64,000 nucleotides of DNA from an uncultured Candidatus Poseidoniales archaeon (lineage in GTDB: Archaea > Thermoplasmatota > Poseidoniia > Poseidoniales > Poseidoniaceae), in contig CACODE010000001.1 of assembly GCA_902625885.1 (NCBI GenBank), positions 131,770-195,769 of the forward strand, given 5' to 3'. Each line of letters opens with the position of its first letter. The stretch's first letter is position 1. The translations under genes were made by a program, and so were the position numbers. This document shows positions 48,880 through 54,365 of the stretch, in pieces. The notes under the pieces were generated by a model. The model worked only from the letters and a program-made list of their open reading frames with translations. It was not told the origin of the DNA and made no database searches.

Positions 48880-49704
48880 ATGGGCGAGCGACTTGACATA
48901 CCACTGCCATCCGGAACGTTTGACCTCGCCGTTGTGCTGGTCGGTGTGTCCCATCCCGGAAATCTCGGGGCGATTTGCCGTTCAATGTTGAATTACGGAT
49001 TTGATGATCTACGGCTCGTAGCACCAAAGTGCACCACCAGCGACGACGAAACCAGAGCGAGAGCAAAACACGCCAGTCGCGTGTTGGAAAACACCCGAGA
49101 ATTCCCCGATATTGAACAAGCAACGAAAGATTGCTCTGCCGTCATCGGAACGTCTGGAAAGCGTGAACTGGGCAGAAAAACATTGAATCGACATTTTTTG
49201 TACCCTTGGGACATGGTCAAACGAATCTCAAACTCCGGAGGAACCGTTGCCCTGGTTTTCGGTGAAGAAGGCAAAGGACTCTCAGGTGATGACTTAGCAA
49301 AATGCGATTACTACGTGACCTTACCTACATGGGAGGGGTACCCGATTGCCAACTTGAGCCACGCGGTCACAGCCATTCTGTACGAAATACAGCGCTTAAG
49401 GGTCATTAACCACCAAGGTGATGAGCCAGGATTGCCCGATATCGTCCCGTTACTCTCAACATTGCAACCGTCGGTACGCGAATCGCTTATCAAAGCCATT
49501 GAGCAATTGAGCAGCCAAACAGGTAAATCTCCTGAGCACCGCTTGTCTGTTGAACAGACCATCAAAAGAACACTGCTCAAGGGGACGCCAAGCGATGAGG
49601 AGGCCACGAGAATCATCGGTGCCTTTGTGGAGGCGACGAGTGCGTTGGAATATGCAAAAAACGATCCGAGATGGCAAAAGGAACATCGCAGGAAATTACG
49701 CTGA
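48880..49704 (+). CDS. SPOUT (TrmH/TrmJ family) RNA methyltransferase
   Basis: VVLVGVSHPGNLGAICRSMLNYGFDDLRLVAP; VALVFGEEGKGLSGDDLAKCDYYVTLPT; YPIANLSHAVTAILYEI. Confidence 0.93.
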   Translation: MGERLDIPLPSGTFDLAVVLVGVSHPGNLGAICRSMLNYGFDDLRLVAPKCTTSDDETRARAKHASRVLENTREFPDIEQATKDCSAVIGTSGKRELGRKTLNRHFLYPWDMVKRISNSGGTVALVFGEEGKGLSGDDLAKCDYYVTLPTWEGYPIANLSHAVTAILYEIQRLRVINHQGDEPGLPDIVPLLSTLQPSVRESLIKAIEQLSSQTGKSPEHRLSVEQTIKRTLLKGTPSDEEATRIIGAFVEATSALEYAKNDPRWQKEHRRKLR

Positions 49705-50154
49705 TTTTGGGCGCCATGTTGCCACAGATTTTGGTGTTTCACGGCAGTGCATCGCAACGAGACGCAGTCGGTTTCCGTAAGTTGAAGAGATGTGGGGGGC
49801 CACGGCATCAAAAGCCCATTTGGCCAGATTTTCCGCTGTTGGTATAAACGGCACGACGACGGTTCGATGTTCATCACCCATCAATTCGCATGCTTTTCGA
49901 GCCTCTTCATCCCCCTCATAGACCACGAAGGCATGATCGATGACATCGTGGACATGTTCCATCAACACCTTGCTGATATCGGAGAAGTCCATCACCATCC
50001 CCTCGTCTGACACACCTGAAACGGTTACGACATCGCCCTCGATCTCTGCCTCAAAGCGGTACCGATGGCCGTGCAAATGCCTGCACTTGGATTTGTGATT
50101 CGGTACCCTGTGACCCGTGTCTGTTTCTACGTACCTTCGTATGGTTGTCGTCAT
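49696..50154 (-). CDS. queD: 6-carboxytetrahydropterin synthase / QueD-like
   Basis: [53 protein letters not shown]. Confidence 0.9.
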
Positions 50155-51308
50155 CTTTCTTCCTCCTGAGTTTCAAAAATAAGCGATGCTGAATTGATGC
50201 AATAACGTTCCCCACCGTAGGCAGCAGGACCATCGTTGAACACGTGGCCGAGATGAGCATCGCATACGCTACAACGAACTTCAACCCGGTGCATTCCATG
50301 GGAATAATCGTCCACCCGTTCAATATTAGCTTCTTTGTGTTCCGTATGGAAAGACGGCCAGCCGCACCCAGAATCAAACTTCATTGTGGACGTAAACAAC
50401 AGAACGGAACAACACACACAACGGTATTTCCCCGGGCGTTTTTCGTTCCAGTATTTGCCAGTAAAGGCACGCTCTGTACCCGCTTCTCTTGTCACGTGGT
50501 ATTGGAGGTCCGTAAGTTGCTCCCGGTACTTCTTGTCGAGGTATTCCCTCTCTGTTTGGAGGGCGTTGTCAAGCACTTCCTCCCACGGCTCAACGTAGGT
50601 AATGGGATCGCGACGCCCAATGGCATTGAAAGCGAGGATCCGTTCAATATCGGAACCTGTCCGACCGTCCGATCGTCCTTCGTCGTCTGGCTGATACGAC
50701 GTGATGGTGCGTGAAAAAATCTCATCAAAATCCACCTTCAGTTTCTCAGTTGACTCTTCTGCATCGCGAAGAATTCCCGCCTTGTCCAACTCAAGATAAG
50801 GCAGGGTAAACGAAATTCGCTCGCTTTCCCAGTTTCCTAGGGCAAAAGCGTGTTCAAGGGCTCGGTAAAATTCTGGTCGACAATCGGGGTAGATGGCATG
50901 GTCTCCGCTGTGAACGCCTAGAGCGATTTCAACGTCTACACTGTGTTTTTGGGACAACGACAAGGCCGTTCCGTAAAGTATGGAGGCAAACAAGGCGTTT
51001 CGATTGGGAACCACGGTGGCTTTCATGTTCTCCTCCTCGTAATGACCCTTTGGAACATCGTCTCCAGTGTTGAGAAGATCGCTCTCAAAAAGAGCGGTGG
51101 CCGATGTTAAATCCGCCACATGATGGGCGACTGCAATGTCTCTTGACCCAAGATAATCGATCAACGATGCTGCGCGTTCCAGCTCTATGAGATGCTTCTG
51201 ACCGTAGTTGAATGAGATCGCTGTGACCGTGTAACCTTTTCGCAAGAGGTGAAGCAAAAGCGAGGAGGAATCCATGCCTCCACTGAGGGCCATCACTGCA
51301 TGTTTCAT
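50151..51308 (-). CDS. QueC-like PP-loop ATPase fused to methionine-R-sulfoxide reductase (MsrB)
   Basis: N-term [34 protein letters not shown]-term [75 protein letters not shown]. Confidence 0.92.
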
Positions 51309-51320
51309 GGCGCCACCGCT

Positions 51321-51980
51321 CTACAAAATCCCCATCCATTTGTGCGTTTGCAACGACAGGCGCCAATCTGGGTTTGCCTTTACCACCTCTTCCGTCATGG
51401 CGAACGAGCGGCCGTTGGCCTCAACGCTCTGCTGATCATCGTAGCACGGTTGCAGAAACAGGTGCGTGAACCCTTGCTTGAGGTCCTGATACATCTCGAG
51501 CGGTTGCCCCACATAAACACACTTCAACTCGTCCCCCGTTCGCTGCTTAATCGGCACCTTGCTGTACATCTGATCTTTTGGTGAAATGCATATCCAATCG
51601 ATGAGCCCTTCTGGTATCGGAACGGTCCCGTTTGATTCAATGGACAGGTGATACCCTCTCTGGCGCAGAATCTTTGCAATCGGCCAAAGGTCGTTTAGCA
51701 TGGGTTCACCTCCGGTGAACACGATGTTTTTGCAGGGGTATGCTTGGACATCATCGAGAATGGCTCGCACGGACATTTTGTCGTACGTATTGAAGTCCGT
51801 GTCGCACCACTCGCATCGGAGGTTGCAACCGCCAAAACGGATGAAGACGTGGGGTATGCCGCTCCTGTATCCTTCCCCTTGAACGGAATGAAAGATCTCA
51901 ACAATGTTGTAGATTTTATCAAAGTCGCCAGCGTTGTCGCTCCCTGCAGTGGTGCGCATTTCGCTGGCTACCCCGCTCAT
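51321..51980 (-). CDS. queE: 7-carboxy-7-deazaguanine synthase (radical SAM)
   Basis: IFHSVQGEGYRSGIPHVFIRFGGCNLRCEWCDTDF; VFTGGEPML. Confidence 0.95.
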   Translation of the reverse strand: MSGVASEMRTTAGSDNAGDFDKIYNIVEIFHSVQGEGYRSGIPHVFIRFGGCNLRCEWCDTDFNTYDKMSVRAILDDVQAYPCKNIVFTGGEPMLNDLWPIAKILRQRGYHLSIESNGTVPIPEGLIDWICISPKDQMYSKVPIKQRTGDELKCVYVGQPLEMYQDLKQGFTHLFLQPCYDDQQSVEANGRSFAMTEEVVKANPDWRLSLQTHKWMGIL

Positions 51981-51989
51981 GATTTCACC

Positions 51990-52565
51990 TCAGAGATTGG
52001 GTTGTTGAATGAGTTGCATGAGTTCAGCTCTTGCTTCAGGTTTGTCAAAAAAGACACCGCGCATCGCTGATGTTGTCATAATGGCGTGCTGTTTGGCGAC
52101 ACCCCTGCACTGCATGCAACCGTGAGATGCTTCAATGATGACCGCTGCGCCGAGCGGTTCAAGTTCCTTTTCCAAATCGTCCGCAATCCCCTTTGTGATG
52201 CGCTCTTGGTTTTGCAAACGGCGGGCGTGGAGCTCAAGCAATCGTGCAAGTTTGCTGATGCCGACAATTCTTTTGATCGGTATGTAGCCAATGTGGGCTC
52301 GTCCTCGGAACGGTTGGAGGTGATGTTCGCACATCGAGGTAAATTCAATGTTTCTCAGCAACACGATGCCGTCGTATCCTTCTGCGTTGAATGTCGAATC
52401 CAACAGTTCCGTTGCAATCATACCGTAGCCAGCGAAAATCTCGCTCCATGAATCAATGACACGCTTCGGCGTATCGACAAGCCCTTCACGATCGACAGCG
52501 TCAATACCTTCAATGTAGCCAAGCAGGGTTCGAACGGCGTCGTGCGCTTCTTCTCGTGACGTCAT
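51990..52565 (-). CDS. folE: GTP cyclohydrolase I (FolE type)
   Basis: SMCEHHLQPFRGRAHIGYIPIKRIVGISKLARLLELHARRLQNQERIT; ASHGCMQCRGV. Confidence 0.96.
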   Translation of the reverse strand: MTSREEAHDAVRTLLGYIEGIDAVDREGLVDTPKRVIDSWSEIFAGYGMIATELLDSTFNAEGYDGIVLLRNIEFTSMCEHHLQPFRGRAHIGYIPIKRIVGISKLARLLELHARRLQNQERITKGIADDLEKELEPLGAAVIIEASHGCMQCRGVAKQHAIMTTSAMRGVFFDKPEARAELMQLIQQPNL

Positions 52566-52735
52566 GAGCTTTCCCTCCTGCCATGACGCAAGTCTATGGA
52601 ATCCAATTGGTCGAGCATTTTCCTGCAGGCGGTTCGTATGGCATCGGCTAGGCTCACGAATTTTTTGTCGTCCCCTACGTGAAGTTTGATGTCATCAAAC
52701 AGTTCCTTGGGTATGTCCAAAGAGACTTTTGGCAT
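52562..52735 (-). CDS. Ribbon-helix-helix (CopG/Arc-like) putative regulator
   Basis: MPKVSLDIPKELFDDIKLHVGDDKKFVSLADAIRTACRKMLDQLDSIDLRHGRRESS; stop overlaps folE start. Confidence 0.65.
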   Translation of the reverse strand: MPKVSLDIPKELFDDIKLHVGDDKKFVSLADAIRTACRKMLDQLDSIDLRHGRRESS

Positions 52736-52865
52736 GCACAGGCGTCCTGTCTTTGCCGTATAAGTATTCGTATATCCATACTGAGATAATATATGGGCGC
52801 AAATCATGTGGATTTGTTGGCGAATCGTGCCAATGTTCAAAGGATACCTCCAAGGATTCCAATAC
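52736..52865. promoter_or_regulatory. AT-rich divergent intergenic region, candidate promoters of RHH/preQ0 operon and aminotransferase
   Basis: gtataagtattcgtatatccatactgagataatatatggg, several TATA-like elements and TATC...GATA half-sites. Confidence 0.45.
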
Positions 52866-54365
52866 ATGCAGACCAGTGCGAGCCAAGAACCTCTGATGCT
52901 TCTTCGTGAGATACGGTCGAACGTGGGGGCCATTGACACACCCGGATTGAAGGACGCTGAAATCCTCTCGTTCTTGGATGTTGATGACAGTCTTTCATCG
53001 GCCATCAGTGAGGCCTATGCGAGGTTCCAGTCCATGGCCAACGAGTTTCCCGAACTTTACCTTGATGCTGACGAAGCCACGCTCATCACCGAACTTCAGG
53101 ACGGTTTCGTGAATTTTTACAATCCAGCTACGGTCAACCCTTATGTCGCCCTCGCCGCCAGAGGTCCATGGATTGTAACCTCCCACGGAGCCGTTATTCA
53201 CGACAACGGTGGGTACGGTATGCTTGGATCTGGGCACGGCCCAGAGCACGTGATACAGTCGATGTCGGACAACTGGGTTATGGCGAACGTCATGACGGCC
53301 TCCTTTTCGCAAAAACGCCTCGATGAACGGCTCCGCAAGGAGCTCGGCCACACCCGCGGTTGGTGCCCGTTTGAAAAGTTCATTTGCATGAACAGCGGGT
53401 CGGAATCGGTCACTGTTAGCCTGCGGATAGCTGACGTGAACGCCAAAATCATGACCCAAAAAGGCGGCAAACACGAAGGCAAGACCATCAAGATGATGGC
53501 GGTTGAACAAGGGTTTCACGGTCGAACAGACCGACCGGCCCAGATGTCGCACTCCTGCAAAGGAAAGTACGACAAGCACCTTGCCAGTTTCCAAAACAGG
53601 GACAACCTCATTCTCGTTCCGGCCAATGATGTCCCTTCCCTGGAAAAGGCGTTCAAGGAGGCAGCAGCCAACAACGTGTTCATTGAATTGTTTGCGATTG
53701 AACCTGTGCAGGGTGAGGGCAACCCCGGTCAGTGCGTTTCTCGTGAATTTTACGACGCCGCTCGTCGCTTAACACTCGAGCATGACAGCATGCTGCTGGT
53801 GGACTCCATTCAAGCGGGGATTCGTGGCCAAGGCACGCTTTCTGTCGTTGACTACCAAGGATTTGAGGACTGTGAGGCACCCGACTTGGAAACATGGTCA
53901 AAGGCGATGAACGCCGGCCAGTTCCCACTTTCGGTGCTCGGGATGAATCAACGTGCTTCGAACCTCTACGTAACCGGTATCTACGGCAACACGATGACGA
54001 CCAACCCCCGTGCACTGGAAACTGCTGTGGCCGTGTTGGACGGTATAACGCCCGAACTCCGAAAAAACATTCGAGAGCGCGGCGTTGAGTTTGTCGAAAA
54101 ATTCTCTTTGCTGCAAAAAGAATTCCCCCACGTCATTACCAAAGTTCAGGGTACAGGCTTGCTGTGCAGCGCAGAACTTGACCCAGAGAAGTTCCCAGTC
54201 GTGGGCCATGAAGCGGTTGAACCGTGGTGCAGGCGTCGCGGTCTGGGCGTTATTCATGGCGGTGAAAACGCTCTTCGGTTCACGCCTCACTTCAACATCA
54301 CATCTAAAGAAATTGACCTGATCGTCTCCATCGTTCGAGAGTCGCTCTTGGCTTTTGGTGCCTAA
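52866..54365 (+). CDS. Class-III PLP-dependent aminotransferase
   Basis: KFICMNSGSESVTVSLRIAD, FAIEPVQGEGNPGQCVSREF, LLVDSIQAGIRGQGTL, TWSKAMNAGQFPLSVLG, YGNTMTTNPRA. Confidence 0.85.
   Translation: MQTSASQEPLMLLREIRSNVGAIDTPGLKDAEILSFLDVDDSLSSAISEAYARFQSMANEFPELYLDADEATLITELQDGFVNFYNPATVNPYVALAARGPWIVTSHGAVIHDNGGYGMLGSGHGPEHVIQSMSDNWVMANVMTASFSQKRLDERLRKELGHTRGWCPFEKFICMNSGSESVTVSLRIADVNAKIMTQKGGKHEGKTIKMMAVEQGFHGRTDRPAQMSHSCKGKYDKHLASFQNRDNLILVPANDVPSLEKAFKEAAANNVFIELFAIEPVQGEGNPGQCVSREFYDAARRLTLEHDSMLLVDSIQAGIRGQGTLSVVDYQGFEDCEAPDLETWSKAMNAGQFPLSVLGMNQRASNLYVTGIYGNTMTTNPRALETAVAVLDGITPELRKNIRERGVEFVEKFSLLQKEFPHVITKVQGTGLLCSAELDPEKFPVVGHEAVEPWCRRRGLGVIHGGENALRFTPHFNITSKEIDLIVSIVRESLLAFGA

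Follow-up and report, generated by a model that had tools for sequence, protein, structure and literature searches.

A QueC–MsrB fusion of Poseidoniales archaea lacks the QueC zinc cysteines, as does a large branch of mostly viral QueC proteins

The window, a 64,000-nt stretch of contig CACODE010000001.1 from a Poseidoniales (Marine Group II) archaeon, one of a group abundant in the surface ocean, carries a gene in which a QueC domain runs directly into an MsrB domain (Table 1). The gene order is folE–queE–queC::msrB–queD; 9 and 12 nt separate the first three genes, and the fusion gene shortly overlaps queD. Profile matches to queD, queE and folE confirm the placement between queD and queE given in the first-pass annotation, and the folE–queE–queC–queD operon is conserved among Poseidoniales loci. 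A small ORF upstream of folE (52562–53005, minus strand) heads the operon in nearly all of these loci. Its C-terminal part weakly matches the archaeal regulator CdrS (19.8 bits, below the cut-off), and it is possibly an operon regulator.

Table 1 Features of the queC::msrB locus, in window coordinates
Feature	Position	Strand	Basis or remark
QueC::MsrB fusion gene	50151..51308	−	Uninterrupted ORF, 385 aa, ATG start; 3′ end overlaps queD start by 4 nt
QueC domain, residues 1–245	50574..51308	−	PF06508, AlphaFold2 pLDDT 89.8, PDB folds
ATP-binding P-loop SGGMDS, residues 9–14	51267..51284	−	Invariant in 30 diverse relatives
YGQKHLIE (canonical YxQxHxxE), residues 35–42	51183..51206	−	Motif as given in PMC13329287
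VPNRN (canonical VPxRN), residues 100–104	50997..51011	−	Alignment
YPDC substrate motif, residues 140–143	50880..50891	−	Alignment
Zinc-site replacement segment, residues 200–229	50622..50711	−	Cys replaced by S204, D214, T217, D220; Tyr205 kept
Interdomain linker, residues 246–257	50538..50573	−	Inside continuous helix 242–264 of the AlphaFold2 model
MsrB domain, residues 258–383	50160..50537	−	CxxC 297/300 and 346/349, C315, catalytic C370
queD, 6-carboxytetrahydropterin synthase	49696..50154	−	PF01242, E = 5.8e-27
queE, 7-carboxy-7-deazaguanine synthase, radical SAM	51321..51980	−	TIGR04508, E = 2.5e-43
folE, GTP cyclohydrolase I	51990..52565	−	TIGR00063, above cut-off

The protein contains two Pfam domains only. 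Residues 4–229 match QueC (PF06508, E = 1.7e-40; 139.2 bits against a gathering threshold of 22) and residues 265–379 match SelR/MsrB (PF01641, E = 2.6e-49), and the MsrB half also passes TIGR00357 (172.3 bits, cut-off 113.05). This HMM scan bears out the earlier description of one frame encoding a QueC domain and a complete MsrB. The best PDB matches to the AlphaFold2 model of the QueC half are the QueC structures 3bl5 and 2pg3; QueC occupies ranks 1–3, Cap9 is fourth and ThiI is at rank 43. Both MsrB zinc pairs and the catalytic cysteine are intact, as first reported, and together with C315 they are invariant across 12 aligned fusions. The MsrB half is 50–57% identical to E. coli MsrB (6SYM) and MsrB3 (6Q9V), with zinc and catalytic cysteines kept, but differs from them in being carried as the C-terminal half of a QueC.

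The QueC half shares its fold, ATP loop, three substrate motifs, the tyrosine that follows the first cysteine and its operon partners with canonical QueC (PF06508/TIGR00364; B. subtilis 3BL5, Pectobacterium 2PG3 and E. coli). The canonical signature, as set out in PMC13329287, comprises SGGxDS, YxQxHxxE, VPxRN, YPDC and, as a hallmark, a C(x)8CxxCxxC zinc motif. The first four are kept across the aligned Poseidoniales rows, in which a few residues are unread, and in diverse relatives, whereas the zinc motif is missing from the window protein. Alignment places C188, C197, C200 and C203 of E. coli QueC (NC_000913) at S204, D214, T217 and D220, which upholds the initial call that all four zinc cysteines are replaced. 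Among 71 aligned Poseidoniales rows, counting both the window sequence and its own locus, sites 1 and 3 are Ser or Thr in every row and site 4 is always Asp, while site 2 varies. The tyrosine after the first site (E. coli Y189), reported as essential in E. coli QueC (PMC13329287), is likewise retained in 71/71.

A zinc cysteine set elsewhere in the domain is ruled out, as C143 of the YPDC motif is the sole cysteine of the QueC half and the remaining cysteines all lie within the MsrB half. Both halves are under strong purifying selection in five close pairs, and for residues 200–228 dN is 0.000–0.015 against a dS of 0.22–1.47, a rough estimate from a short segment. This near-zero dN points to a maintained replacement and rules out a pseudogene or a decaying zinc site. 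Zinc economy across the whole pathway is an unconvincing cause, since the FolE and QueD of the window belong to zinc-enzyme families and MsrB retains its CxxC pairs.

Loss of the motif is accompanied by low scores against the curated NCBI equivalog model for QueC, TIGR00364. The window protein reaches 133.2 bits, under the cut-off of 150.3, and its match stops at model position 186 of 201; six further zinc-free members score 117 to 132 bits, with matches stopping at 185–188. L110, a cysteine-bearing viral sister, passes with 152.1 bits and a match through position 201. Pathway reconstructions based on this cut-off may therefore miss zinc-free QueC in marine archaea and phages.

Beyond Poseidoniales, QueC retains all four cysteines in 11 other Thermoplasmatota genomes. 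A scan of viral contigs with a Poseidoniales-led alignment found 78 of 80 loci to be without the cysteine set. When a second viral scan was seeded with L110, only L110 itself, among 80 loci, had the set. Genome contigs gave no four-Cys site in 80 loci, one Marine Group III (MGIII) protein retaining the first cysteine only. Pooled, 237/239 viral and genomic loci lack the site, a total that leaves out the re-found L110 but still counts the overlap between the viral scans and a few truncated genes; because the samples are similarity-ranked, these fractions apply to the close surroundings of the query and not to QueC overall. The cysteine loss thus extends to related genomes, both within the order and outside it. 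A DNA pattern search for the phage-type motif matched at least 120 stretches.

Zinc-free members include the isolated Flavobacterium phage immuto, cultured Cysteiniphilum, Facilibium, Pirellulaceae (Planctomycetes), Verrucomicrobiota and MGIII. Their replacements fall into two types: S-[SNDH]-[ST]-D in archaea, Planctomycetes, Verrucomicrobia and some viruses, and S-D-S-S in most phages and Fastidiosibacteraceae. The QueC proteins of immuto and related aquatic viruses are 44–50% identical to the window protein and, like it, have replaced zinc cysteines and folE, queD and queE alongside; that of immuto differs in its motif (SDYKSASSVER; S, D, S, S), in the absence of MsrB and in having DpdA as a partner for DNA. 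QueC without zinc cysteines forms a large branch, mostly from aquatic viruses, that is apparently undescribed: no earlier description was found in the open-access literature, which lacks most subscription journals, and the main text of PMC13329287, in the part available, mentions no zinc-free QueC with the other motifs kept. A 2026 family survey used the four-Cys zinc motif within the canonical QueC signature, from which this large branch departs.

In a tree built without the zinc columns, a clade that includes the cysteine-bearing L109 and L110 splits from other zinc-type QueC with 100/99 support. These two viral proteins (L109:4965-5783 and L110:4956-5780) keep all four cysteines inside the zinc-free clade and are useful for placing the loss. 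Their position, together with the two replacement motifs, suggests that the cysteines were lost more than once, and a single loss is not rejected by the topology test (p-AU 0.22). QueC from Fastidiosibacteraceae and Thiotrichales (L199–L207) is nested in the phage-type branch, a placement suggesting transfer between phage and bacterium. L193–L198, contigs that carry zinc-free queC and were assigned to bins of Pelagibacter, Flavobacteriaceae or Flavobacteriales, look like phage contigs inside genome bins.

The gene context of this branch is that of synthesis and use of preQ0 (7-cyano-7-deazaguanine), a precursor of modified bases. The own genome of the window (a 1.66-Mb assembly, 70% complete) gave no match to a second QueC or MsrB, and 15 other genomes with zinc-free QueC hold no second QueC, their further matches being short, partial and within longer proteins; a canonical QueC elsewhere was accordingly rejected for these genomes. 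QueF scores above its cut-off in 12 of 13 bacterial genomes with zinc-free QueC, adjoining queC in Verrucomicrobia, and TGT is present in 10 of the 13. The genome without QueF is an assembly labelled Deltaproteobacteria (L215); it carries a Poseidoniales-like folE–queE–queC–queD operon and is probably misassigned or contaminated. Phage immuto encodes FolE, QueD, QueE, zinc-free QueC, DpdA and QueF. On the archaeal side, 55 of 59 Poseidoniales genomes have a TGT match, and the ArcTGT of the window's own genome scores 425.9 bits against a cut-off of 350. Three Poseidoniales genomes (G069, G070 and G073; 86–89% complete) have a TGT match without a QueC match, reflecting either incomplete assembly or preQ0 import. 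QueF and ArcTGT are established to act on preQ0 (PMC6884629), so preQ0 is the product expected of zinc-free QueC from its gene context.

We therefore consider it likely that the N-terminal half is a preQ0 synthase of the zinc-free branch that works by canonical chemistry, and that the C-terminal half is an ordinary MsrB joined to it through gene adjacency. FolE, QueD and QueE of the operon would supply 7-carboxy-7-deazaguanine (CDG), which the QueC half would adenylate and aminate to preQ0 in two ATP-dependent steps, like canonical QueC. The conserved Ser/Thr-Tyr ... Ser/Thr-x-x-Asp segment would stand in for the four-Cys zinc knuckle, probably, by our conjecture, holding the same loop and helix through hydrogen bonds and helix capping. 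ArcTGT and an ArcS-like protein would then use the preQ0 to make archaeosine. The MsrB half would act as a normal zinc-binding, thiol-dependent MsrB. We infer enzymatic activity, the absence of metal, the working of the segment and the dispensability of the covalent link. The first-pass annotation had left two options, zinc-free preQ0 synthesis or altered chemistry; the motifs, the operon, the sole QueC and the QueF context favour the former, and nothing points to the latter.

Several observations weigh against a preQ0 synthase. The window protein falls under the QueC cut-off, the ArcS-like protein, seen in a congener, scores below the cut-off of its own model (235 against 440 bits), and the presence of QueF may be compatible with imported preQ0. 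The zinc motif is moreover described as a hallmark of QueC, and a zinc site or its cysteines persist even in QatC and Cap9, which have been repurposed (PMC13329287; PMC13279940). All other catalytic motifs and the pathway context are nevertheless kept without it, which suggests that the structural zinc of QueC is replaceable, a proposition directly testable since zinc-free QueC occurs in cultured Cysteiniphilum and in the isolated phage immuto.

QueC proceeds in two steps via 7-amido-7-deazaguanine (ADG), and dADG occurs in the DNA of some phages (PMC6884629). The two steps could become uncoupled once a structural element beside the active site is lost, and a zinc-free QueC could then halt halfway and release ADG. 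We judge this very unlikely: QueF, known to act on preQ0, accompanies zinc-free QueC in 12 of the 13 bacterial genomes and in phage immuto, the ArcTGT and ArcS-like genes of Poseidoniales point to enzymes with known action on preQ0 or its tRNA product, and the QueC of Campylobacter phage CP220, which belongs to a group of phages with reported dADG, has all four cysteines.

Repurposing of the domain for protein deazaguanylation, as in Cap9 or QatC, appears extremely improbable. The window QueC shares scaffold and ATP loop with these anti-phage proteins, Cap9 is its fourth-ranked fold match, and at least two repurposings of the scaffold are on record (PMC13329287). Both repurposed families, however, keep the zinc cysteines and sit in defence operons, whereas the window gene, the only QueC of its genome, lies in a complete preQ0 operon that lacks CD-NTase as well as QatA, QatB and QatD.

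The fusion to MsrB has a different distribution from the cysteine loss. Fusion is seen at 39 of 70 Poseidoniales loci (including L053, which has an N-run across the junction); 19 have a separate msrB directly downstream, and 12 have no msrB there, one of these being too near a contig end to judge. These 39 loci rule out that the fusion is an artefact of a sequencing error or of a frameshift where the two halves meet, and the fusion and its adjacency in related genomes stand. The tree requires at least six changes between fused and unfused states, four of them forced by well-supported branches. L054 and L055 have queC and msrB in frame with one stop codon between them, as an intermediate of fusion or fission would. 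None of the bacterial or viral loci examined has an msrB next to its zinc-free queC.

The fusion thus exists and has recurred, but it is not found at every locus and is independent of the cysteine loss. The two had been paired in the earlier note, but each Poseidoniales QueC examined shows the loss, whether it is fused or stands alone, and the same loss in viruses and in bacteria without a linked msrB marks it as unrelated to the fusion. The proposed link between deazaguanine synthesis and redox damage reduces to a genomic association confined to Poseidoniales, in which the msrB linkage is conserved yet optional and fusion and separation recur. The recurrent joining of frames that already lie side by side, msrB directly downstream of queC, is a sufficient explanation of the fusion, and a functional benefit is possible.

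Such a benefit might come from MsrB repairing QueC methionines, for example that of the P-loop SGGMDS, or from redox coupling of preQ0 synthesis, with the cysteine-free QueC as an adaptation to oxidation. The invariant P-loop methionine, the adjacency over most of the order and the recurrent fusion and fission are in keeping with this proposal. We regard it as unlikely, given that the methionine is equally invariant in relatives without MsrB, that the loci without linked msrB and the zinc-free relatives outside Poseidoniales lack the partner while the former have the same QueC motif, and that two other enzymes of the pathway, FolE and QueD, come from families of zinc enzymes. Unlikely, too, is a broader scenario in which the branch spread by aquatic viruses comprises zinc-less preQ0 synthases that provide several archaeal and bacterial lineages with their only QueC, and in which the covalent MsrB partner of Poseidoniales preserves the activity of the enzyme under photo-oxidative stress, tying tRNA archaeosine synthesis to methionine repair.

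The fusion also brings seven cysteines to the protein, and with the Asp conserved at the fourth site it raises the idea that zinc is still bound, by MsrB cysteines or by Ser/Thr/Asp at the former site. This is highly improbable: Ser and Thr are poor zinc ligands, and MsrB needs its own cysteines for zinc and catalysis. Supply of zinc by MsrB cysteines is ruled out, as orthologues without a linked MsrB show the same replacement.

The archaeosine pathway has another QueC fusion of archaea, Gat-QueC, whose partner is a glutamine amidotransferase, a domain absent from the window protein. The fusion of QueC to MsrB itself is already in print, as the archaea-only ‘AANH-MSRB’ (UniProt A0A2D6JNB0) of a 2018 review (PMC6211008). 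That report named Cys162, CysR334 and CysA389 and left the adenylation substrate open. The three residues are spaced exactly as C143, C315 and C370 here, with a constant offset of 19, so the two are almost certainly the same protein. The review modelled the AANH domain on ThiI, an assignment that fails for the window protein, whose closest folds are QueC, and its presumed AANH nucleophile is the cysteine of the QueC YPDC motif. The QueC assignment, the operon and the pathway together give ‘AANH-MSRB’ a probable substrate, CDG.
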